Below are positions 16,417-54,678 of a DNA stretch of 58,293 nt, piece by piece. The position numbers and the translations under genes are program-made. Source of the stretch: Candidatus Gastranaerophilales bacterium. Its GTDB lineage: Bacteria; Cyanobacteriota; Vampirovibrionia; Gastranaerophilales; Gastranaerophilaceae. The first letter of the stretch is position 1, and every line of letters starts with the position of its first letter. The stretch is taken from positions 1 to 58,293 of the forward strand of contig CAJOJP010000011.1 of assembly GCA_905234915.1 (NCBI GenBank), read 5' to 3'. The notes under the pieces are model-generated. The model saw only the letters and a list, made by a program, of their open reading frames with translations. It ran no database searches and had not been told where the DNA came from.

Positions 16417-18009
16417 TTATACAATCATAATTCTGTTATCTTTTTTTATTTCAAAAGGATGCTTTAAAGTTTTTATATAATCTATTGTAACTTTATCTTT
16501 ATCGTAATTAAAGCGTTCAATAATATCCTTATCCTCGCGTTTTAGCATACCTAAATTATCTCCGCCCTCAACTAAAAATTCATCATAAACAGCAGTGTAA
16601 GTTTTATTCGGGTCAGGATTATTAACATCAATATTTCTTTTTAAACCCTGCTTATCTGTATATATCATTTCTGTTAAGCAGCCTTCTTTATCAAGTTTAT
16701 AAGTCAGTCCTGATACCTGTAAAAGCCCCGGTTTTGAGTTTGTTGCAATTAACGATTTACCGCATGCATTGACTGCATCGACAAGGTCTTTTTCGTTAAG
16801 TTTTACTTTTAATAATTTATTTGAAAACGGGAAAATACTTGAAATATCACGTTCCGTAATTTTACCCGTATTTATACTCCCTCTGAAATTAGCCGAATTT
16901 ATTAATACTATATCTGCATTCATATTTGTTTTTATAGCATCGGCAACAAAATCGGCGCATGGGTTTTCTTCCAAAAGTGCATTTTTAGGAAGTTTATCAC
17001 GTAATATTAATTCACCTATTACGGGAGATTCGCCTAAAATAGAATTTATTGTTTTAGACATAACCATATTAGGCGAATATGAATTTGTGTCCATTATATT
17101 ATTTTGAACGTAAGTAATTCTGCCTTTATCATCAAATTCAAGATTTAAAATACCGAAATTATTTCCGTCGCGTCCTGCCTGAGTAATAATAACAGGTTCA
17201 CCAACAGGGGAATATAAAAGATTTTTTCCGTCTTTAACTCCTTCTATTAAATCATGGGAATGACCGCCAAGAATTACATCAATACCTGAAACTGTTTGAG
17301 CTATTTCTTTTTCTACGGTATTTCCCTGATGCGAAAGCAGAAAAATTTTATTTACTCCCTGTTTTTGTAACTGTTGGACTTCCTCTTGCAATTTTTGAAT
17401 AGTCTGCTGTTTATTATCTATTGTAATACCTTCCAATACTTCTTTTTTCTTTAATCTTTCATTTATATCGGAGGGTTGAACACCTATTAATCCGTATTTT
17501 TCTCCGTTTTCACCGATATGAATGACGGAGCGCATAACTTTTTTTGATAAACCTTTATCATCATCAGGGAAATTCATATTCATGCCTAATATTTTAGTAT
17601 CTGCATTTTTAAGTAATTCGGCACATTTTGAAGCTGTAATATCAAATTCGTGATTACCGGGAGCTTGAGCATGTATCCCTGCTATATTAAAGAAACCTGC
17701 TATTGCTGTATTTCTTTTTTCATCGGAACCGATAAAAGTATCACCCGAACACAACTTTAAAAAATCCGCTCCGTTCTCTCTTGCCGTAATTCCTGTTTGC
17801 TGGGCCGCAGAAACTAAACGCTCTGTTTTCGGAATCTGACAATGTATGTCATTAACGTACCAGAGCGTAGTTTTTGTTATTGAATTTGGATTTCGCATTA
17901 CCTTGTGTGTATGGTTTGGAAACTTTTGCGTTTTGTAACTGTCAAACTGCACACTATGCGAGGGAGGAGTCTGTTTGTTCGGCGATATATATGACGATAA
18001 AATATTCAT
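16417..18009 (-). CDS. 5'-nucleotidase / metallophosphatase
   Basis: UshA-like enzyme that removes phosphate from nucleotides or related esters. The N-terminal metallophosphatase domain holds YVNDIHCQI (usual D-x-H), SGDTFIGS (GD), APGNHEFD (GNHE), LSHQGN and ILGGHSHD, which bind two metals. The C-terminal nucleotidase domain includes 'NSANFRGSINTGKIT' and 'DEFLVEGGDNLGML'. I take the start at 18009 (MNILSSYIS). There is no signal peptide, unusual because most homologues are exported; the first 30 residues are Ser/Pro/Gln-rich and end in 'HSVQFDSYK'. It is transcribed alone. Confidence 0.9.
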   Translation of the reverse strand: MNILSSYISPNKQTPPSHSVQFDSYKTQKFPNHTHKVMRNPNSITKTTLWYVNDIHCQIPKTERLVSAAQQTGITARENGADFLKLCSGDTFIGSDEKRNTAIAGFFNIAGIHAQAPGNHEFDITASKCAELLKNADTKILGMNMNFPDDDKGLSKKVMRSVIHIGENGEKYGLIGVQPSDINERLKKKEVLEGITIDNKQQTIQKLQEEVQQLQKQGVNKIFLLSHQGNTVEKEIAQTVSGIDVILGGHSHDLIEGVKDGKNLLYSPVGEPVIITQAGRDGNNFGILNLEFDDKGRITYVQNNIMDTNSYSPNMVMSKTINSILGESPVIGELILRDKLPKNALLEENPCADFVADAIKTNMNADIVLINSANFRGSINTGKITERDISSIFPFSNKLLKVKLNEKDLVDAVNACGKSLIATNSKPGLLQVSGLTYKLDKEGCLTEMIYTDKQGLKRNIDVNNPDPNKTYTAVYDEFLVEGGDNLGMLKREDKDIIERFNYDKDKVTIDYIKTLKHPFEIKKDNRIMIV

Positions 18010-36907: not shown

Positions 36908-37177
36908 TCATTGTTTTGAATTAGAAAAAAGGTCTTTAAAGCCGCGTTTTATTGCCGGTATATTGCTTTTAGGCATATATTTTTCCGCTGCTTTAAATGT
37001 ATCTTTTCCATCTTTTATCGATGTATGTCTGAATAAAAAAATATCATCTCCAAACTGATGTATCCAACAAACACTGACGTTCATTTGATTTGAAAAGTCA
37101 CCTTGAGCTCTTTTTAAAAATGTTCTGTTAATAAGACCAAACGATACATTTTGCGATGAATTAAATCCAACCTTCAT
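36908..37177 (-). CDS. Unknown small protein with N-terminal SFG motif
   Basis: I do not recognise this 89-residue protein. It begins MKVGFNSSQNVSFGLINRTF and ends in a basic tail. The middle, VCWIHQFGDDIFLFRHTSI, is beta-rich. The N-terminal 'short polar segment then SFG' is shared with the proteins at 39157 and 44173 (FGG) and resembles the one at 37365 (FSF). There is no signal peptide. AGAGGTG precedes the ATG. It converges with the SNF2 gene. Confidence 0.6.
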   Translation of the reverse strand: MKVGFNSSQNVSFGLINRTFLKRAQGDFSNQMNVSVCWIHQFGDDIFLFRHTSIKDGKDTFKAAEKYMPKSNIPAIKRGFKDLFSNSKQ

Positions 37178-37364
37178 AATTTAAACACCTCTTTATTATA
37201 TCTATTATTTCACATGATAGTAGCAAAAATATAAAAAATATGTTCAAATTTGAAAATATTTTTTAAAAAATGTAACATTTTTATTTTTATTTTAAAATTT
37301 AATATCAAATTTTAAAATTTTTATAATTTAAACCAAGCGGAAAGTCAAAAAGGAATTTATTTTT

Positions 37365-38048
37365 ATGAGAGTTAATAATATTAATGTAAATAACGGATAT
37401 TTCTCTTTTAGGGCAGAAAATAAAAATAAAAATCAAACAAAAATGCAGCCGGTTTTCCGAAATGAAACAGAGTCATCAGATTCAATTTCGCGTTTAACAA
37501 AAAAAGAAAATATAAAAAATAGCAGAATAACAGCTCAGCCGTTATCTCCTTATGCAAAAATATTATTTAAAAGATTTCAAAATTTTAATGCCGAAAATGT
37601 TATAGACCTTAATACAGGAATAGAAGTTACCGCGGAATCTATCAATGAGGAAACATTAAGACCGGGAGATAAAGCATTTATGCAGATAGCCAAAACTCCG
37701 TTTTTTACAATTATTGATAGAATAGCCGAAAATGAAGAGGAAGAAGAAGCATTAACAGAAAAATTACATTCTTTAATATCCGAGGATTTTAATAATCCTT
37801 CTAATCCTGTGGAAGAAGCATTTTCGCAGTATATTTCGGTTGTACCTCATATTACGCAGGAAAACAGTTTTGGATTTGTTTTACCTATGTTTGAAGATTT
37901 AAAAAAACTTGATAGTGAAACAGTTACTGATAGAGATATATTGAAAGTGATAAAGTCACATGTAAAAAGACAAAAGGAGGAACAGCCGGCTTATGAAATT
38001 CCTTTATTGGGCAAAATTTATAGATTTGTACTTTCCTTTTTAGATTAA
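37365..38048 (+). CDS. Unknown protein with N-terminal FSFRAE motif
   Basis: A 227-residue protein of unknown function. It starts MRVNNINVNNGYFSFRAE, followed by a polar Lys/Asn/Ser-rich region to about residue 60, which may be disordered. A folded acidic domain covers about 65-215 and includes 'IDRIAENEEEEEALTEKL'. An amphipathic or membrane-touching helix ends it (LLGKIYRFVLSFLD). AAAGGA precedes the ATG. It is followed by two more unknown genes on the same strand. Confidence 0.6.
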   Translation: MRVNNINVNNGYFSFRAENKNKNQTKMQPVFRNETESSDSISRLTKKENIKNSRITAQPLSPYAKILFKRFQNFNAENVIDLNTGIEVTAESINEETLRPGDKAFMQIAKTPFFTIIDRIAENEEEEEALTEKLHSLISEDFNNPSNPVEEAFSQYISVVPHITQENSFGFVLPMFEDLKKLDSETVTDRDILKVIKSHVKRQKEEQPAYEIPLLGKIYRFVLSFLD

Positions 38049-38130
38049 TAATTAAAGCTACATCATTTAGATTAAAAATATCAGTTATTTATTAAAAAAT
38101 ATGTAACTTGGTGGTATAATTTTTTGCGAA

Positions 38131-39054
38131 ATGACAGAAAATACTTATATGAGTCCGGTAAGTCCGGCTTTATACAAAAATCAAACAAATAAATATGCTG
38201 ATATAAAGCAGGATTATTGTGATATTAAAAAATGTGCCGATAATTTTAAAGTCAGGATTGAAAAAATAGAAAAAATCCAGCAGGATTACTTTGAACATAC
38301 TAATGGTATAAATACGCCAAAAGAACTTCGTTCAATACTTAACATTATTCCTACAATAAGAAGAATTGACCGTGTTCCCGATAAAATAGAAAAAAAAGAT
38401 AATATTCCTGCATACGGTCTAATTGCACTTGCAGCATTAAACCTGCCTGAAGATATGCGTGATACAAGGGCTGCAATCAGGCAGCTGGTTCAAGGTGATA
38501 AGTTTGAGTATCATTATGACTATAAAAAAGCACAGCATCCTTTTTCATTTTTTAGAGGAACTGCCATACATAAATTAATAGATACGAAAACCAGTCCGTT
38601 TCCTAAACTTGCAGAATGGCTGGTAAGTAAAGATACTACATTATATGAAACAAAATTCGGTAAATTTGTTAATAAAGTTTTTAATATTGAAACGAATGAT
38701 GTTGAAACCGGAATTAAAAATATGAATAAGAATTCAGAATGCGTATATGCTCATAAATATAATACCAAATCATATATAGGTGAATTAACGGCAAGAGCAT
38801 TAACAAGAACAACAAAAATCGGTGCAATGGTTTTAGCGGGGATTGAAGCAGCTCATTTTGCAAAAGAGGTAAATTCCGGTAAAAATGTAAAAAAAGAACT
38901 TGTTCAATCTGCTGTTACATATATAAGCAGTATTGCAGGCATAGGCTATTTAGGCGCAATAGGAGCTAAATACTTTGGGCCTGCCGGCTCTATTATAGGA
39001 ATGGGTTTAGGTGCAGTCGGCGCAAATAAAATTTCTAACAGTATTGATACCTAA
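38131..39054 (+). CDS. Unknown protein with Gly/Ala-rich C-terminal membrane region
   Basis: A 307-residue protein I cannot place. The N-terminal half is charged and probably helical. The C-terminal 90 residues are hydrophobic and rich in Gly and Ala (TKIGAMVLAGIEAAHFAKE; SIAGIGYLGAIGAKYFGPAG; IIGMGLGAVGANKI), like glycine-zipper membrane-inserting segments. No signal peptide. The promoter box TGGTATAAT ends ten bases before the ATG and no ribosome site is seen, so the leader can be only three or four bases. A membrane-disrupting or host-directed protein is conceivable but unsupported. Confidence 0.55.
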   Translation: MTENTYMSPVSPALYKNQTNKYADIKQDYCDIKKCADNFKVRIEKIEKIQQDYFEHTNGINTPKELRSILNIIPTIRRIDRVPDKIEKKDNIPAYGLIALAALNLPEDMRDTRAAIRQLVQGDKFEYHYDYKKAQHPFSFFRGTAIHKLIDTKTSPFPKLAEWLVSKDTTLYETKFGKFVNKVFNIETNDVETGIKNMNKNSECVYAHKYNTKSYIGELTARALTRTTKIGAMVLAGIEAAHFAKEVNSGKNVKKELVQSAVTYISSIAGIGYLGAIGAKYFGPAGSIIGMGLGAVGANKISNSIDT

Positions 39055-39156
39055 AACTTAAAAAATATATAAATAATTAAAAAAGTTATAGAAATATCTA
39101 AAATTAAAACGCAAAAATTTTTTTTACGAGTTTTAATACTTCCGGGAGTGTAAAAT

Positions 39157-39732
39157 ATGAATAAATTAATTTCAAATTATACCCAGTCTTTTGGGAAGCA
39201 GGCATTAATGACATGTGATATTAAAGAGTTAAATACAAATGATAAAAAAAGTGCAACTTTGTACAAACTTAATCCGGAAAATCCATCTGATATAAAAGAT
39301 GTTTTTTACAGTAAACATACGGGATGTATAGCAAGGGATTTTGAGAAGGCTTATTACGCTTCTTACCCGCAAAAAGAATTTTATATGCTTCAAAATAATT
39401 CAACCGGTGAGGTTGTTTCCTGCGCGCAAACCTCTCATCATTACAGACCTTCAGCACTTTCACAATCCGGTCAATATACTTTGATTGAAGAAGCAAAAGA
39501 AAATAATAAATATAAAAATGCAATAGAGCCTTTATTGGCATATATTACAAAGTCTGCTTCCGATAAGTTTGATGAATCCGTATTCACTGCCTTTGATGAA
39601 AATACAATTAAAGGACTTTCTGACAGTAGTTTCTCAAAAGCTGATACCGGAGAATATTTTATTTCACGGAAAAATTTTGTACCTTTTATTAAAAATACGG
39701 AAAAAGCCTGCAATATCGAATATATTGTATAA
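39157..39732 (+). CDS. Unknown protein, SFG N-terminus, possibly GNAT-like
   Basis: A 191-residue protein beginning MNKLISNYTQSFGKQALM. Residues 70-140 read FYMLQNNSTGEVVSCAQTSH and 'YTLIEEAKENNKYKNAIEPL', a strand-turn-strand then helix pattern like an acetyltransferase core, but the acetyl-CoA loop (Q/RxxGxG/A) is not obvious. I treat the GNAT idea as weak. GGGAG lies before the ATG. It shares the short SFG leader with genes at 36908 and 44173. Confidence 0.55.
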   Translation: MNKLISNYTQSFGKQALMTCDIKELNTNDKKSATLYKLNPENPSDIKDVFYSKHTGCIARDFEKAYYASYPQKEFYMLQNNSTGEVVSCAQTSHHYRPSALSQSGQYTLIEEAKENNKYKNAIEPLLAYITKSASDKFDESVFTAFDENTIKGLSDSSFSKADTGEYFISRKNFVPFIKNTEKACNIEYIV

Positions 39733-39867
39733 GTATATTTAAAGTGCTTTATTTCAAGTAAAATCAAAATGTAAAATGTAAACAAAATTAAATATTACTG
39801 CATACAATAACAAATTATTTTATAATTGTATTTTGTATTAATAGAAAAATTGAAATTGGAGAAAAAT

Positions 39868-40716
39868 ATGCCGGGTGAAATTTTAATAGAACGCGAAATT
39901 GATAAAAGCAAAGAAACAAATTTGAACGGCATTGCTTTCAGAATAATTGACGGTTTAAAAGATATACTTTCAGAAGACAGAAGACAAAAACAACCCTTAA
40001 TTCTTTCCATAAATGAACAAATGCTTATTAAAATTGTAAAGGAATTTATTGTTAATAAAAGGCGTCAGTGTCTTATAGGTATAACGGGCGAATCCGCTTC
40101 AGGTAAAACAACACTTGTAAACTATATTTCAAAAGCATTAAGAAAAAAATTATATAATGAATCATATACAAGCTTATGCTGTGATGATTATTACAAAGAT
40201 ACCTCGGCAGAATTAAAAGCGGCAGGAAGTTACGAAGAATTATACAAAACCGGTTTTAGTTTTGATAAGCCCGAAGCAATTAATTTAGATTTAATGCGGG
40301 CGCATTTAATAAGTCTTAAAAACGGCTGCGGAGTAAATGCTCCCGAATATGATTTTGTTACTTGCGAAAGCATTCCAAACAGAGCCTATAAAAATCCTAC
40401 AAAAGCTATTCTTGCGGAAGGACTTTATGTATTGGGCAAGGAACTTGTCGATTTATTTGATATTAAAGTTTACGTATTCACTCCTTTTGATAAAATCAAA
40501 GAAAGATGGTTTACAAGAGCAATTTTAAGAGGTAAATCAGGTGCTGCGGCAGAACATCAGTTTAATGACGTTAATTCCACAGCACAAATATATATACGTC
40601 CGACCATGAAAAATGCCGATATTGTTGTAAACGGATTAACAGGGGCAGATTATATTGAAGATATAACAACAAAAATTATCAGTTTAATAACGGATATAAT
40701 AAATTTTTATAAGTAA
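39868..40716 (+). CDS. Uridine kinase/phosphoribulokinase-like P-loop protein
   Basis: A 282-residue kinase of the PRK/uridine kinase fold. A 60-residue N-terminal extension precedes the P-loop GITGESASGKTTLVNYI (about residue 73). 'LCCDDYYKD' matches the uridine-kinase 'DxFY' strand; 'FSFDKPEAINLDLM' gives the D-x-P-x-A/S-x-D element; 'NPTKAILAEGLYVL' corresponds to the EG motif. The phosphoryl acceptor is probably a nucleoside or sugar. The start is the ATG at 39868, with GGAG seven bases before it; the open frame upstream is not supported. A TATAAT box lies at 39821. Confidence 0.8.
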   Translation: MPGEILIEREIDKSKETNLNGIAFRIIDGLKDILSEDRRQKQPLILSINEQMLIKIVKEFIVNKRRQCLIGITGESASGKTTLVNYISKALRKKLYNESYTSLCCDDYYKDTSAELKAAGSYEELYKTGFSFDKPEAINLDLMRAHLISLKNGCGVNAPEYDFVTCESIPNRAYKNPTKAILAEGLYVLGKELVDLFDIKVYVFTPFDKIKERWFTRAILRGKSGAAAEHQFNDVNSTAQIYIRPTMKNADIVVNGLTGADYIEDITTKIISLITDIINFYK

Positions 40717-40727
40717 GAGTTTTTAGC

Positions 40728-42170
40728 TTGAAGTTTTGGTTTAACGATAAAAAATTTTTTATTGCTTTATTTATATTATTGTTTATATACCTTTTAACGG
40801 GATTTTACATAATATATAATCATTTGGATATTATAACCAAAGCGGAAGTATTTTTAGGAGCAGATAATGCCAGAGCCTGGAATGATTTAACCGTAATTAA
40901 TTCAGACCATTACAGAATTAAAGTTCACCCGTTATTTATTTTACTTATTCAGCCATTTGTGCATACATTAAATTTAATTATAAATAACACTGCTGTTTCT
41001 CTTATAATTATTCAGTCTGTTTTTGGAGTTGGAACATGTGTTTTAATTTTTTTTATTTTGAAAAATTTTAATGTTTCTAACAATATATCATTTATTTCAA
41101 TGTTACTTTGGGGATTATCTTTTTGTGCATTAATATTTTCCTCAATTCCTGAAACGTATATATATTCAGCTTTTTTTAATCTGCTGTTATGGTTTTATAT
41201 TTCTAAATTAATGAAAAACAATAAATTATCAACAGGTGAAATTATTAATACATCTTTATTTTCTGCACTTGCAACAGGAATAATTCTTTCAAATTTTTTA
41301 ATTTGTATAATAAGTATTGTTTTTTTATTACAAAATGTATATGAGAATAAATTAGTTCCTATAATTAAAGAATTATTTAAAATAATTCTTTTAAGTATTC
41401 TATTTATTACAATTTTAAATTTTTTACAGTCTTTATTATGGAAAACCCCGATATTATTTAAGAGTTTATCGGTTATATTTACTAATCCTAATGAATATGA
41501 GGATTTTAAATACTTTAATTTCCATATCAATTCAGCTGTAATGCATTCACTTTTTTATCAATATTTTATTGCTCCTTTTTATGCAATAAAAATTATTGAA
41601 CTGCCCCAATGGGGAAGCCGTTTTACAAAAATAGTATTTAAATATCACCAAAATATAATGCTGACCTTACCTGTTATACTTATTTATTGTTATGCATTAA
41701 TTTCTGCAATAAAAAATAAAATAATAAAAAACAAATTAATTATAACTTTATTTTTTATTATTTTAATAGAATTTATCTCTTTTATATTTTATGGGAATTT
41801 TGAAGCCTTCATATATTCGCCGAATTATTTAATATTTATAATTTTATTTTTTGCAAATATATTTAATAACTGCCAAAATAAATTTTTATACCTTATATTA
41901 TCTTTGATTTTTATATGTCAGATAATATTAAACTTTAAAGCAATATTATATATAGTACAATATCTTAATAAATATGCCATGCCTGATGCAAATTATGCGC
42001 TTTTCCCGATTTATTCCTTAATAATTGCAATTTTATTTGCAATAATTGCATTTTTTATCTCAAAAAAAATAAAAAAAATACAAATAGAAAAGGTTTTATA
42101 TATATACATTTTTTATTGTTTATTATTTCTTACATTACAAATATTAAGTAATTTATGTAAAAATATGTAA
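40728..42170 (+). CDS. Polytopic membrane protein, GT-C-like
   Basis: A 480-residue protein with about ten to twelve hydrophobic segments and an acidic loop between the first two (TKAEVFLGADNARAWNDL), a layout like GT-C glycosyltransferases of the PMT/ArnT class, which use polyprenyl-phosphate sugars. A His and a Pro (IKVHPLF) follow in the second segment, also common in that class. No sequence signature is certain. Only a TTG at 40728 is available at the N-terminus, with a weak AAGAG site. It starts 11 bases after the kinase gene stop. Confidence 0.6.
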   Translation: MKFWFNDKKFFIALFILLFIYLLTGFYIIYNHLDIITKAEVFLGADNARAWNDLTVINSDHYRIKVHPLFILLIQPFVHTLNLIINNTAVSLIIIQSVFGVGTCVLIFFILKNFNVSNNISFISMLLWGLSFCALIFSSIPETYIYSAFFNLLLWFYISKLMKNNKLSTGEIINTSLFSALATGIILSNFLICIISIVFLLQNVYENKLVPIIKELFKIILLSILFITILNFLQSLLWKTPILFKSLSVIFTNPNEYEDFKYFNFHINSAVMHSLFYQYFIAPFYAIKIIELPQWGSRFTKIVFKYHQNIMLTLPVILIYCYALISAIKNKIIKNKLIITLFFIILIEFISFIFYGNFEAFIYSPNYLIFIILFFANIFNNCQNKFLYLILSLIFICQIILNFKAILYIVQYLNKYAMPDANYALFPIYSLIIAILFAIIAFFISKKIKKIQIEKVLYIYIFYCLLFLTLQILSNLCKNM

Positions 42171-42362
42171 ATTTTTTGGTCAAATATTCAATATTTAATT
42201 AAAGAAAAAACTGTTAAATGCCGAATATAATAACAGGAAAGAGATATTTTTTCCTGTTAAGAAACAAGAAAAAAGGCTTAAAATATGTTAAAACATAAGG
42301 CAATAAGCAAAAATTCGATGTTTTAATATATATGTAGTCCTTAAAAAATCAAGGAGAACTTA
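42171..42362 (+). promoter_or_regulatory. Upstream region of the coiled-coil pair
   Basis: A TATAAT box lies at 42226-42231, and an inverted repeat (TAACAGGAAA at 42231-42240 with its complement to about 42260) follows directly, in the 5' leader. The leader is about 125 bases, long for this genome, which may indicate control at the RNA level. Confidence 0.45.
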
Positions 42363-42647
42363 GTGGCAAAAGCAAGTGCTTCATCGGCAATAGAACTACA
42401 AATAAGACAAATGAAAAACTTTATGGGATTTACGGTTGCTTTTTTGAAAAAAAGAAACCCCGTAAAGTTACTTAAAGAAGGGGTAACTGCGTATATACAA
42501 AATCTATTAACGGTAAATCAAAAACTTACAAGAATACAAAATCGTATAAACTATGAAAGGTACAAATTAAAAAAAACAGAATTGATATTAGCGCAAAATT
42601 CAGAACACGTATTCTTGAAAGGAAGGCAGATAAACCAGACAAGATAA
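42363..42647 (+). CDS. Unknown small basic helical protein
   Basis: A 94-residue protein starting with GTG behind AAGGAG. It is basic and mostly helical: MAKASASSAIELQIRQMKNF, 'FMGFTVAFLKKRNPVKLLKE' and a coiled-coil-like end 'LTRIQNRINYERYKLKK'. No signal peptide. The next gene, 30 bases on, encodes a clear coiled coil, so the two may form a complex. A flagellar or export accessory role is possible because the genome has a FlhB-like protein, but nothing here proves it. Confidence 0.55.
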   Translation: MAKASASSAIELQIRQMKNFMGFTVAFLKKRNPVKLLKEGVTAYIQNLLTVNQKLTRIQNRINYERYKLKKTELILAQNSEHVFLKGRQINQTR

Positions 42648-42677
42648 CAATATAATATAAAGTAAGGTAAGGGAAAA

Positions 42678-43016
42678 ATGGGCTTTTTAACATCATTTTC
42701 AAGGTCAATGTATTTAACAAATTACATTAACAAACTGCAAATACAGTTGAATGACGTAACTACTGAGCAGCTGGATTTAACAAATGAAATTGCTCAATTG
42801 ACGTCAGAGATAAGTGATTTGGGAAAAACCGATTCTGCTGCCGTGAAACAATTAACAGCTCGAAGGGTTGAACTTGAAGCGTTGGACAGGCAATTACAGG
42901 CAAGAATGAAAAAAATTCAAGCTCAAATTCAGGCGGCAACTACGGAAATGCAGTCAGCAGAACAGATGCTGCAGCAAAATATCCAAAAATCATTTGGTTA
43001 TGCCGGCGGAAGGTAA
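42678..43016 (+). CDS. Unknown coiled-coil protein
   Basis: A 112-residue protein. After MGFLTSFSRSMYLTNYI, almost all of it is a heptad-patterned coiled coil rich in Gln, Leu, Glu and Ala (LNDVTTEQLDLTNEIAQLTS, 'RRVELEALDRQLQARMKKIQ') and ends KSFGYAGGR. AAGGG lies before the ATG. Its size and form resemble FliJ-like or chaperone proteins of export systems, but these have no reliable signature. It is probably co-transcribed with the gene at 42363. Confidence 0.6.
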   Translation: MGFLTSFSRSMYLTNYINKLQIQLNDVTTEQLDLTNEIAQLTSEISDLGKTDSAAVKQLTARRVELEALDRQLQARMKKIQAQIQAATTEMQSAEQMLQQNIQKSFGYAGGR

Positions 43017-43054
43017 TTTACGTTTCTTATAGCTTTTATGCTAATATTCTTGTT

Positions 43055-44080
43055 ATGAGTGAAAAATTTATATTAGTAGGAAAAAATCTTGAGGAACTCG
43101 AAAATTTTGTCACGGAGCTTGGATTAACAAAATTTAGAGCAAAACAAATTTATAACTGGATTTATTTGAAATCAGTAAAAAACATTGATGATATGACTGA
43201 TCTGCCTGTTAATGCGCGGGAATTATTAAAAGAGAAATCTGTTTTAAGTGATATTTTTATAAAAGATAAACAAATAAGTTCAGACGGAACAATGAAATTT
43301 CTGTTTGAACATAAAGATGGAACTTTTGTAGAAGCGGTTTTAATGCGTTTTGATAACAGGTCAAATTTAACAGCCTGTATATCAACCCAAGCAGGCTGCC
43401 CTATGGGGTGTGATTTTTGTGCAACAGCAAAATTGGGTTTTATTCGTAACCTCACTACTCGTGAAATTATTAATCAAATATACTTAATACAGGCTGATAC
43501 GGGCTTAAAGGTTACCAATATTGTGTATATGGGGCAGGGTGAACCTTTGTTAAATTTTGATAACCTTATTTCCTCAATAAAAATTTTCAGAGAACAATTC
43601 CAAATAGGAGCAAGAAGAATAACAATTTCTACCTGCGGAATAATTCCCGGAATTAAAAAGCTTGCGCAATTAGATTGCCAATCTACACTTGCAATATCAT
43701 TGCATGCTCCTAATCAGTCAATACGTGAAACAATTATGCCTGTTGCAAAAAAATACGCATATAATGATTTATTAGAAACATTAAAGGAATACATTCAAAC
43801 CGTAAACAGGCGCGTTACAATAGAATATGTACTTATAGGCGGAATAAATGATTCCATCAGAAATGCGGAGGAACTTGCCAAAAATATTGCAAAGCTTAAA
43901 TGTAATGTAAATTTAATAATATATAACACTCACGAAAAAAGTAATTATAAAAAACCCGATAAAATTGCGGTGCAAAAATTTAAGTATATTTTGGAAGCCT
44001 CTGGCAAAAAAGTTACAATAAGGCTGGAACGAGGTTCTGATATTGATGCTGCCTGTGGTCAATTAAGTTCTAAGATTTGA
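43055..44080 (+). CDS. rlmN: 23S rRNA (adenine-2503-C2)-methyltransferase
   Basis: Dual-specificity radical SAM methyltransferase acting on 23S rRNA A2503 and some tRNAs. N-terminal accessory domain: LTKFRAKQIYNWIYLKSVK. The cluster motif is GCPMGCDFCATAKLGF (C-x3-C-x2-C). 'YMGQGEPLLNFDN' is the GE motif, and the catalytic Cys lies in the tail 'DIDAACGQL'. Length 341 is normal. No Shine-Dalgarno is visible. A TGCTAATAT box ends seven bases before the ATG, so the message may be leaderless. Confidence 0.96.
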   Translation: MSEKFILVGKNLEELENFVTELGLTKFRAKQIYNWIYLKSVKNIDDMTDLPVNARELLKEKSVLSDIFIKDKQISSDGTMKFLFEHKDGTFVEAVLMRFDNRSNLTACISTQAGCPMGCDFCATAKLGFIRNLTTREIINQIYLIQADTGLKVTNIVYMGQGEPLLNFDNLISSIKIFREQFQIGARRITISTCGIIPGIKKLAQLDCQSTLAISLHAPNQSIRETIMPVAKKYAYNDLLETLKEYIQTVNRRVTIEYVLIGGINDSIRNAEELAKNIAKLKCNVNLIIYNTHEKSNYKKPDKIAVQKFKYILEASGKKVTIRLERGSDIDAACGQLSSKI

Positions 44081-44172
44081 TAGTTTAGATAGAATTAACA
44101 ATATTGCATACGTTTTCACGATTTTCTACAGTTAATATTAAACTGCTTAAGTTTTATGAAATTTTTCCAAAA

Positions 44173-45186
44173 TTAAGATTTATCGGTTTTATCGGCAAGA
44201 TATGTTGTAGCCATTGGCAAAAGACCGTAATAAACAGCGGCAAAAATCAATGTCGGGCGGATTATATTAATACCTTCTATATATTTTGCAAGTTTCGGGT
44301 CATTTTTATTTTGTTCTTTAAATTTTAAAATAAAATTTTTTGTATTTTTTTTAACGGCTTCATCAATGGCACATCCGCCGATAATACTTGCAATTGTTCC
44401 GTACAATGTATTCATTATTAAAGGTTTTTTGCGTTCTTTTTCTATATTTTCATTTTTAATTGTTTCGTTCGCAAAAGAGGCAGTGAGTAATATATCGGTT
44501 GCAACAGCCATATTACGTGTTATATCCGTATCATAAGGAGTGAATTTTTCTGCCGTATTTTGAACTGTTTTACTATTAAGAATTTTTGCTGCACCTTTTG
44601 CTGCTATATTCGTAATACCGCCTTTAAAACTTGGTATTTTCCCGAATACCTGAGGGGTAACCGGTTTTTTATGTTCAATCTTCTTTTTTTCCTTTTTTTG
44701 TGAAAAAAGTTTTTTTGTTAATACGGGAATTAATGCTACAGTCATTACAGATTTTGGAATTGCGGTAATAAAACCTATACTTTGTTTCATAAACTGGGTA
44801 GCAAATTTAAAAGTTCTTGAATTAGAAAGAGAAACTGCTCCTTTTTTAAAGGTATCAATTGTATTTTTTGAAAGAAATTTTTCGGGATTTTTTTCTACTT
44901 TTTTTATTGCATTTTCAATAGGAACAGCAACAGCAAGACCTATGCCTAATTTTACCAATCCCGAAGCTATAGAATTAGAAACAGCATATTTTTTATTTTC
45001 TTCTTTAACGTTTGGAGTTGCAGCTATAGCAACAGGGCGGACACCTGAAGCCATAACAAAAGTAGTTGCAGCAATAAAACTTGTGCTGTGTTCGGAAACG
45101 GTTTCCAAACCTTTTAAAACCGTTTTATTATTCCATAAACCGCCAAATGTTGCCGGAGATTTATTATAGTCATAACCGATTTTCAT
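44173..45186 (-). CDS. Unknown membrane-associated protein, FGG N-terminus
   Basis: A 337-residue protein of unknown function, starting at 45186 as MKIGYDYNKSPATFGGLWNN. Several Ala/Gly/Val-rich segments look membrane-interacting (IASGLVKLGIGLAVAVPIEN; ITAIPKSVMTVALIPVLTKK; NTLYGTIASIIGGCAID; LIFAAVYYGLLPMATTYLA) between strongly basic linkers. There is no signal peptide. The layout (polar FG leader, amphipathic repeats, basic linkers) is like the proteins at 37365 and 38131. The start has no ribosome site, but a TATAAT six bases upstream. Confidence 0.6.
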   Translation of the reverse strand: MKIGYDYNKSPATFGGLWNNKTVLKGLETVSEHSTSFIAATTFVMASGVRPVAIAATPNVKEENKKYAVSNSIASGLVKLGIGLAVAVPIENAIKKVEKNPEKFLSKNTIDTFKKGAVSLSNSRTFKFATQFMKQSIGFITAIPKSVMTVALIPVLTKKLFSQKKEKKKIEHKKPVTPQVFGKIPSFKGGITNIAAKGAAKILNSKTVQNTAEKFTPYDTDITRNMAVATDILLTASFANETIKNENIEKERKKPLIMNTLYGTIASIIGGCAIDEAVKKNTKNFILKFKEQNKNDPKLAKYIEGINIIRPTLIFAAVYYGLLPMATTYLADKTDKS

Positions 45187-45192
45187 AAAAAA

Positions 45193-45222
45193 ATTATAAA
45201 TCAAAAGCCATTTTGGATACAA
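45193..45222 (-). promoter_or_regulatory. Leaderless promoter of the 44173 gene
   Basis: Read on the minus strand: TTGTAT, an 18-base spacer, TATAAT (45198-45193), six T, then ATG at 45186. The transcript start should coincide with the start codon. Confidence 0.7.
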
Positions 45223-51692: not shown

Positions 51693-51947
51693 ATGGCAGT
51701 TGGGGCTAGAGATAATATTGACCGCGAGTTGGTTCGCAAATATGCAAAATTAAAGATGAATAATCCCGAAACTACAAAGTTGGTGGATACTCAATCAATG
51801 CTTGAAGCGATGAATGACTATGCAAATATGCAGCGGGAAATGATAGAACTTGATAAAAAACTAAGAGAAATATGCGCAAATGTTACGTGTAAATCCGTAA
51901 AATATATGAGAATTAATTTCAATCCTCCGCGCAGACGCCAGCAATAA
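51693..51947 (+). CDS. Unknown small helical protein, first paralogue
   Basis: An 84-residue protein I cannot name. It begins MAVGARDNIDRELVRKYAKL, has a charged helical middle (MLEAMNDYANMQREMIELDK) and ends YMRINFNPPRRRQQ. It is about 70 percent identical (58 of 82 positions by hand) to the protein at 52067. GGGGAGA lies before the ATG. No signal or membrane segment. Its neighbours further on are Maf, Apt and a FlhB-like export protein; whether it belongs to the export apparatus is open. Confidence 0.65.
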   Translation: MAVGARDNIDRELVRKYAKLKMNNPETTKLVDTQSMLEAMNDYANMQREMIELDKKLREICANVTCKSVKYMRINFNPPRRRQQ

Positions 51948-52066: not shown

Positions 52067-52315
52067 ATGGCAATAGGAGCTCAAGATAATATTGATAGGG
52101 AATTAGTTAACAAATATGCGAAAATAAAAGTAGATAATTCAGAATCTGCAAAGTTAGTAGATTATCAGACTATGTTAGAGGCAATGACGGATTTCGCAAA
52201 CCACCAGCGGGACATGATGACGGTAGATAAAAAACTGAAAGAAATATGTTCTAACGCAACAAGCAAGTCAATCCGCTATATGCGTATAAACTTTAATCCG
52301 CCACGGCGTCGGTGA
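52067..52315 (+). CDS. Unknown small helical protein, second paralogue
   Basis: An 82-residue copy of the preceding gene: MAIGAQDNIDRELVNKYAKI to YMRINFNPPRRR. Start chosen at the ATG at 52067, because it aligns with the MAVGA start of the paralogue; a TTG nine bases upstream is closer to GAGGGGG but is not conserved. Both ends are strongly conserved between copies, while the middle varies, which suggests selection for binding at the N- and C-termini. A terminator-like hairpin follows. Confidence 0.65.
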   Translation: MAIGAQDNIDRELVNKYAKIKVDNSESAKLVDYQTMLEAMTDFANHQRDMMTVDKKLKEICSNATSKSIRYMRINFNPPRRR

Positions 52316-53613: not shown

Positions 53614-54678
53614 ATGGGAGATGAGGATAAGCAATTTGAAGCCAGCCACCAAAAGCTGCAAAAAGCAAGACAAAACGGTCAGGTTGTAAAATCTAAAGAT
53701 TTTTCTACTGCTCTTTCCCTTCTTGTTATGTTTTTCGTAGTTTTAAAACTGGCACCTTTTATCTGGGATAAAGTTGCTGCACTATTTGTAGGGTTATATG
53801 ATAAAATACCCGATAAGCATCTTGGTGATATAGGGTATGTTCCTATATTACTTTCGGTTTGTTTACATGGAGCATTAATTATAGCTCCAATTCTTATTTG
53901 TGCGGCTTTTATTGCTGCTATGGGAGATTTAATACAAATAGGTCCTTTGATTACTACAAAACCTCTGGAACCAAGCCTGAATAAATTAAATCCGACAAAA
54001 TATTTTAAAAATATATTTTCTTCAAAAACTGTTTTTGAACTTGTAAAAAATATCGTTAAAGTTTTGGTTTTAGGATTTGTAGGCTGGTTTGTATATAAAT
54101 CTCATTTTGCCGGAATTTTAGCTCTTATTTCAATAGATAACTGTTTTGCAATTTTAGAAAAATTTGGGGCTTTGATAATAGATTTTGCAACGAAAGCTTG
54201 TATGATATTCTTTCTGATTGCAGCAGCAGATTATGCAATGCAAAAACGTAAATTTATGAATGACCAAAAAATGAGTTTTAAAGAAGTAAAAGATGAATAT
54301 AAAAACTCTGAAGGCGACCCTCACGTCAAAGCTCAATTAAGACAGCGAAGGCAGCAAATGGCAAGGCAGAGAATGATGGATTCCGTGCAAGAATGTGACG
54401 TTGTCATAACTAATCCCACACATGTTGCCTGCGGATTAAAATATGACCCTCAGCAAATGGAATCACCTAAATTATTAGCAAAAGGAACAGAACTTTTTGC
54501 TAAAAAAATTATTGAAATTGCAAGAGAGCATTCCATTCCCGTAGTGGAAAACCCTCCAGTTGCAAGGGCTATTTTCCGCCTTGTTGATGTTAATGAGTCT
54601 ATTCCCCCTGAACTTTATAAAGCAGTAGCTGAAATTTTAATATTTGTCTATAACTTGAAAAAATCAGCCTCTCATTAG
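53614..54678 (+). CDS. FlhB/SctU-family export switch protein
   Basis: Integral component of a flagellar or type III export gate that controls substrate class. Four hydrophobic segments lie in the first 210 residues, with the linker 'KRKFMNDQKMSFKEVKDEYK' and a cytoplasmic domain with the autocleavage site Asn267-Pro-Thr-His in VVITNPTHVACGLKYD. The start matches the family (DKQFEASHQKLQKARQNGQV). The residue after NPTH is Val, as in SctU proteins, where flagellar FlhB usually has Tyr; the C-terminal 'IPPELYKAVAEILIFVY' is more FlhB-like. No other export gene is in the window, so type and completeness of the apparatus are unknown. Length 354. Confidence 0.9.
   Translation: MGDEDKQFEASHQKLQKARQNGQVVKSKDFSTALSLLVMFFVVLKLAPFIWDKVAALFVGLYDKIPDKHLGDIGYVPILLSVCLHGALIIAPILICAAFIAAMGDLIQIGPLITTKPLEPSLNKLNPTKYFKNIFSSKTVFELVKNIVKVLVLGFVGWFVYKSHFAGILALISIDNCFAILEKFGALIIDFATKACMIFFLIAAADYAMQKRKFMNDQKMSFKEVKDEYKNSEGDPHVKAQLRQRRQQMARQRMMDSVQECDVVITNPTHVACGLKYDPQQMESPKLLAKGTELFAKKIIEIAREHSIPVVENPPVARAIFRLVDVNESIPPELYKAVAEILIFVYNLKKSASH

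Follow-up and report, generated by a model that had tools for sequence, protein, structure and literature searches.

Does the polar N-terminal leader that runs into Phe-Gly on several otherwise dissimilar proteins of this locus act as an address label, and if so, for what destination? The window, a stretch of 58,293 nucleotides from contig C11 of a 2.5 Mb Gastranaerophilales genome (G000, 98% complete), encodes three proteins with such a leader and a fourth that had been placed beside them. The proteins and their motifs are as follows.

36908..37177, minus strand: 89-residue leader-carrying protein of unassigned function, N-terminus MKVGFNSSQNVSFGLINR.
37133..37144, minus strand: motif S12-F13-G14-L15 at the end of the 36908 leader, from the alignment of homologs at F13.
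37365..38048, plus strand: 227-residue protein with a polar N-terminus containing GYFSFRAE, without homologs and without a family; membership unsupported.
39157..39732, plus strand: 191-residue leader-carrying protein of unassigned function, N-terminus MNKLISNYTQSFGKQ.
39187..39198, plus strand: motif S11-F12-G13-K14 of the 39157 protein, from the alignment of homologs.
44173..45186, minus strand: 337-residue all-helical membrane protein of a lineage-restricted family, N-terminus MKIGYDYNKSPATFGGLW.
45139..45150, minus strand: N-terminal motif T13-F14-G15-G16 at the end of the 44173 leader (45151-45186), from the alignment and the AF2 model.
44620..44631, minus strand: second, internal motif S186-F187-K188-G189 in a Lys-rich loop of the 44173 protein, from the alignment and the AF2 model.

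The N-termini of the 36908, 39157 and 44173 proteins are as the earlier note had described them. Neither Pfam nor NCBIfam holds a family that matches any of the three, so the bodies show no relationship within the scope of these searches, and by inspection their leaders are polar and lack the hydrophobic stretch of a classical signal peptide, both in agreement with what had been claimed. The 37365 protein, likewise without a matching Pfam family, had been offered as a looser fourth example and is not supported here as a carrier, as it has no homologs in the other 40 genomes of the genus and its F-S-F-R-A fits the motif only loosely. Gene starts were taken from a simple in-house caller; the 44173 reading frame is open further upstream, to a start at 45222, and the combined coding and RBS score favours 45186, in agreement with the earlier note. 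A GNAT-like identity considered for the 39157 protein was dropped, the single-sequence structure being too poor (pLDDT 42).

Whether such leaders exceed chance expectation depends on how the pattern is worded. In its loose form, polar residues followed by FG or FR, it is not enriched, with 117 matches observed against 139 expected in G000 and similar values in the relatives. A sharpened pattern, drawn up by eye and consisting of M-x-[IV], a variable-length, acid-poor linker rich in Asn, Ser and Gln, and then [S/T/N]-F-x-[G/A], is enriched, and the corresponding leader is found on approximately 1.5-2.5% of the proteins in genomes of the window's family; the sampling took in roughly half of G000 and portions of the other genomes, with 73-98 proteins per genome outside the family. 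First, a weight matrix built from 18 proteins of G000, hand-picked by eye, yielded 17 matches at t>4 in two other genera of the family against 7.0 in shuffles (maximum 12), and 2 matches in 815 internal windows. Next, the expression M.[IV]..[SNT]F(.G|G) matched 14 times, against 3.5±1.8 expected, in genomes that had been seen before it was written; in an independent set of 575 non-redundant proteins from 75 further records, which played no part in defining the pattern, it gave 10 matches against 2.74±1.61 expected, one or two of them resembling ordinary domain starts by eye. Only 2 of 1000 shuffles scored as high, and a single match occurred among 485 internal windows. Finally, [STN]F[KT]G appears 24 times within the first 65 residues. 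Its residue classes can be arranged in 23 other orders, which average 8.7 occurrences; one of these, F[KT]G[STN], likewise reaches 24. The outgroups display no excess of [STN]F[KT]G.

The Phe lies within the first 30 residues in 33 of 42 leaders. Their composition is weighted towards Asn, Gln and Ser, with little Glu, Asp or Leu; since Asn, Ser, Thr and Gln are favoured by the scoring, only the depletion of acidic residues and Leu is independent of it. No hydrophobic N-terminal signal of the Sec, Tat or lipoprotein type was found in the leader sets, to which a hydropathy filter was applied. The pattern might nevertheless be a compositional accident, produced by Asn-rich disordered N-termini, an AT-rich genome (genes of about 31% GC), common Phe-Gly pairs and the reader's eye. 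Such an origin would suit the lack of enrichment of the loose pattern, the construction of the first PWM from hand-picked proteins and the occurrence of false matches, of which two were discarded as carriers: L018:11282, where the TFG belongs to a carbohydrate-kinase fold, and L046:2213, an amidase whose genuine signal peptide precedes a mis-called start. The enrichment in data unused for building the pattern makes this very improbable, and it is largely refuted by alignments in which the Phe is nearly invariant across diverged homologs.

In these alignments, which cover homologs of the 36908, 39157 and 44173 proteins, the Phe is retained while the length and sequence of the leader vary. Homologs of the 39157 protein are present in 27 of the 41 genomes of the genus, its own included, and [SNT]-F-[GC]-K is retained in approximately 27 of 28 homologs that are 24-68% identical and have linkers of about 3-10 residues, a count that includes two homologs with the Phe-Gly-Lys codons just upstream of the called start. 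A Phe aligned with F13 is found in all 16 homologous copies of the 36908 protein in another genus, which retain M-[KR]-[IV], a variable linker differing in length and sequence, and F-x-[AVK]. The other leader families keep F-x-G in 8 of 18 homolog pairs against 2.0 expected by shuffling. The invariant Phe within a hypervariable leader leaves a targeting or docking signal well supported, and on these comparisons the element is very probably a recurring, conserved docking motif. The earlier suggestion that one short N-terminus is shared by different proteins is confirmed and extends to dozens of proteins, and its targeting or docking part is upheld, whereas the evidence for its export part is circumstantial. 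The docking leader is real, specific to the lineage as far as sampled and apparently undescribed, no account of the motif having been found in the literature.

The 44173 protein carries the motif twice. Its family occurs in 137 of the 146 genomes of the window's family and in 40 of 41 genera, is present in the family groups f1 and f6 (anonymous labels) and has no member outside the order among the genomes listed. Of 60 aligned members, 41 possess the N-terminal extension, and 40 of these have its Phe; the internal S-F-K/T-G is more strongly conserved still, with F187 in all 60 members, G189 in 59, [STN] in 57 and [KT] in 56, next to neighbouring columns of about 1-2 bits. The AF2 model depicts a confident helical protein (mean pLDDT 86), for which Foldseek returned no PDB match with E<=0.001. 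In the model both motifs fall in low-confidence, predicted disordered regions, with pLDDT below 50 at residues 1-6 and 8-14 of the N-terminus and at residues 177-183 of the internal loop, where the blocks over residues 171-190 are at about 52. As one copy is situated in a disordered loop, the element is better described as a short linear docking motif than as a purely N-terminal signal, and it has the few fixed residues, the disordered variable segment and the occurrence on unrelated proteins by which such motifs are recognized. The same loop bears on another reading, namely that F-x-G is a site of proteolytic cleavage, the leader being cut off at the Phe, or a point of covalent attachment. 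The sharp boundary, with variable sequence before it and the body soon after, and the narrow core with a small residue at +2 would fit such a role, but the identical motif in the loop would cause the 44173 protein to be split in two, and this reading is improbable.

Carriers of the leader are mostly proteins without a known domain. Among the exceptions are an ADP-ribosyltransferase-exoenzyme, a calcineurin-like phosphoesterase and an mTERF-like protein, together with the cytosolic-type domains of a 4-alpha-glucanotransferase, a uridine-kinase/PRK-like protein and a poly(A)-polymerase head. The ADP-ribosyltransferase-exoenzyme domain belongs to L015:7995-8969 (E=1e-14), the first 58 residues of which are 41% identical to the N-terminus of a large HD-domain protein with an unrelated body; that N-terminus is shared by the HD-domain proteins L005:6886-10149, L008:5574-8870 and L008:8884-12471, and the leaders of the large HD-domain proteins end in SFKG at about residue 60. 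Leader genes no more than three genes apart form 5 pairs against 1.3 expected, partly as tandem paralogs. Their base composition equals that of other genes (31%, p=0.4), which gives no sign of a recent foreign origin. Both the common 58-residue N-terminus and the clustering could be taken to mean that a single N-terminal module was copied onto several genes by descent and has no present function. Apart from M-x-[IV] and F-x-[GA], however, most leaders cannot be aligned with one another, and a functionless relic would not retain the Phe amid the turnover around it, while the alignments show the Phe to be more conserved than its neighbours; descent alone is therefore the least probable of the readings considered.

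Several further proteins were noted along with the carriers. By eye, L005:429-1307 resembles another ADP-ribosyltransferase, without a Pfam match. L140:4821-7616 is an M16 (insulinase-type) peptidase with a polar, N-rich N-terminus, no evident signal peptide and an internal SFTG. The homologous loci L201 and L206 belong to public records titled 'uncultured Brachyspira sp.' and 'Clostridiaceae bacterium', which are probably misnamed. The window itself contains one more enzyme with a polar N-terminus.

16417..18009, minus strand: 5'-nucleotidase-type enzyme with a polar N-terminus (PF02872 and PF00149).

F-x-G is kept in none of its three close homologs, in whose N-termini no signal peptide was found either, and since the motif is not conserved, the enzyme is kept apart from the leader carriers.

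A possible destination is suggested by the export gate protein to which attention had already been drawn, and which is confirmed as a full-length family member.

53614..54678, plus strand: FlhB/SctU-like export gate protein (PF01312, E=2e-115, full length).

Further parts are encoded elsewhere in G000. FliE, FliF, a FliG-like protein, FliH and FlhA are clustered at L044:11040-17251 (contig C32), a layout repeated in the fliE-flhA cluster of a genome from another genus (G059), and FliP lies at L028:11538-15068 (contig C18) with FliQ/FliR-like neighbours, assigned by gene order next to FliP only, and a FliM/N-domain protein. The export gate and basal parts FlhA, FlhB, FliP, FliF and FliH are thus all present, and an FlhA-type protein is found in 38 of the 38 order-level genomes searched. 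G000 has no flagellin, and in the window's genus flagellin occurs in 2 of 23 genomes, in one of them as a fragment only; in the other families of the order most genomes retain flagellin and a second FlhA that scores like the flagellar one. PF06429 is represented in the genus by two to three rod-size proteins and by none of hook or HAP size. Incomplete flagellar sets have been noted earlier and interpreted as a loss of functional flagella (PMC4040986). As there is no flagellin to export in G000, the apparatus may instead serve the leader proteins. Each of the 38 order-level genomes searched also encodes one soluble protein related to FlhA, which in G000 (L045:1198-2661, contig C105) has 487 residues and comprises the FlhA/SctV cytoplasmic domain only, with no membrane part (PF00771 positions 321-652, E=7e-48).

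Slightly upstream of flhB, the window holds a tandem of similar 82-84-residue proteins ending in YMRINFNPPRRR (51693-51947 and 52067-52315), the first of which matches no Pfam family; the pair could be small structural subunits. A 112-residue coiled-coil protein at 42678-43016 ends in NIQKSFGYAGGR, and a similar tail, NIQTSFTYR, is found in G059 on a protein encoded some 6 kb away from the fliE-flhA cluster.

The leader resembles known export signals in layout more than in sequence. The core of the flagellar gate recognition motif (GRM) is a Phe with a hydrophobic residue at +4. According to the published account, the signal of rod and hook subunits combines an N-terminal hydrophobic element with a GRM that docks at FlhB-C, at least 26 residues apart (PMC8983047). 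The leader is alike in having a small hydrophobic residue near the start, a disordered linker and a short docking element, with FlhB present. It differs in its F-x-[GA] core, followed at Phe+4, as judged by eye, by a hydrophobic or aromatic residue in no more than about half of the leaders, in its linkers, mostly shorter than 26 residues, and in its occurrence on enzymes and internally in a membrane protein. The leader thus does not match the flagellar export motif in either sequence or spacing. Type III effector signals are disordered, rich in Ser, Asn and Thr and poor in Glu, Asp and Leu, as the leaders appear to be. These signals are not known to have a sequence consensus, in contrast to the nearly invariant Phe-x-Gly/Ala seen here, and the best secretin match in the present genomes (TIGR02516) is below the family cut-off. 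The chaperone-binding beta-motif of type III effectors is a short conserved stretch behind a disordered N-terminus and is similar to the leader in layout, by which alone the two were compared, but it would not account for the internal copy. Short linear docking motifs as a class likewise have three to five fixed residues, lie in disordered segments at the end or in the interior of a chain and occur on unrelated proteins; the present motif is restricted to this lineage as far as sampled.

Taken together, the leader may be viewed as a two-part, lineage-specific address label, in which M-x-[IV] and the disordered, Asn/Ser/Gln-rich, acid-poor linker would form the first part and the docking motif [S/T/N]-F-x-[G/A], able to act also from an internal disordered loop, the second. 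From the sequences we infer a common cytoplasmic receptor that would bind Phe-x-Gly, for which the soluble FlhA-cytoplasmic-domain protein is a candidate, and we infer as the likeliest outcome a hand-over to the conserved flagellar-type apparatus of FlhA, FlhB, FliP, FliF and FliH. Export by this route is plausible because the apparatus is present, the filament is absent and some carriers resemble exported enzymes, and the ADP-ribosyltransferase and HD-domain proteins, with one N-terminus on different bodies, point in the same direction. Against it stand the internal motif of the 44173 family, at a position in which an export signal confined to the N-terminus would serve no purpose, and the leaders on enzymes that are normally cytosolic, and the use of the leader for export through this machine is accordingly rated as possible, a little short of probable.

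These same observations would suit a cytoplasmic docking without export, in which F-x-G recruits soluble enzymes and the 44173 protein to a scaffold or adaptor at the inner membrane. The internal copy in the disordered loop is as conserved as the N-terminal one, the Lys-rich loop suggests the cytoplasmic side by the positive-inside rule, and cytosolic-type enzymes are among the carriers; yet a net positive charge is common to every loop of the 44173 family and does not discriminate between the two sides of the membrane, and an ADP-ribosyltransferase domain of the toxin type would be unusual in the cytosol, as would a 5'-nucleotidase-type enzyme that lacks a signal peptide. Docking without export is a tentative alternative, held with less confidence than export. 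The broadest form of the export reading, that Gastranaerophilales of the window's family have repurposed a flagellin-less machine as a general export system with the label M-x-[IV]...F-x-[G/A] and a dedicated receptor, seems unlikely on present sequence comparisons.

The Gastranaerophilales, non-photosynthetic relatives of the cyanobacteria, are frequent inhabitants of animal guts. Should the label mark proteins for export, it would allow exported proteins, most of which have no known domain, to be recognised from sequence throughout this uncultured lineage. The incomplete flagellar gene sets, which have been interpreted as a loss of functional flagella (PMC4040986), would then also have a role. 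Should the motif serve docking without export, it would still be a short linear motif that recurs on bacterial proteins, with a core that hardly varies and a putative receptor.
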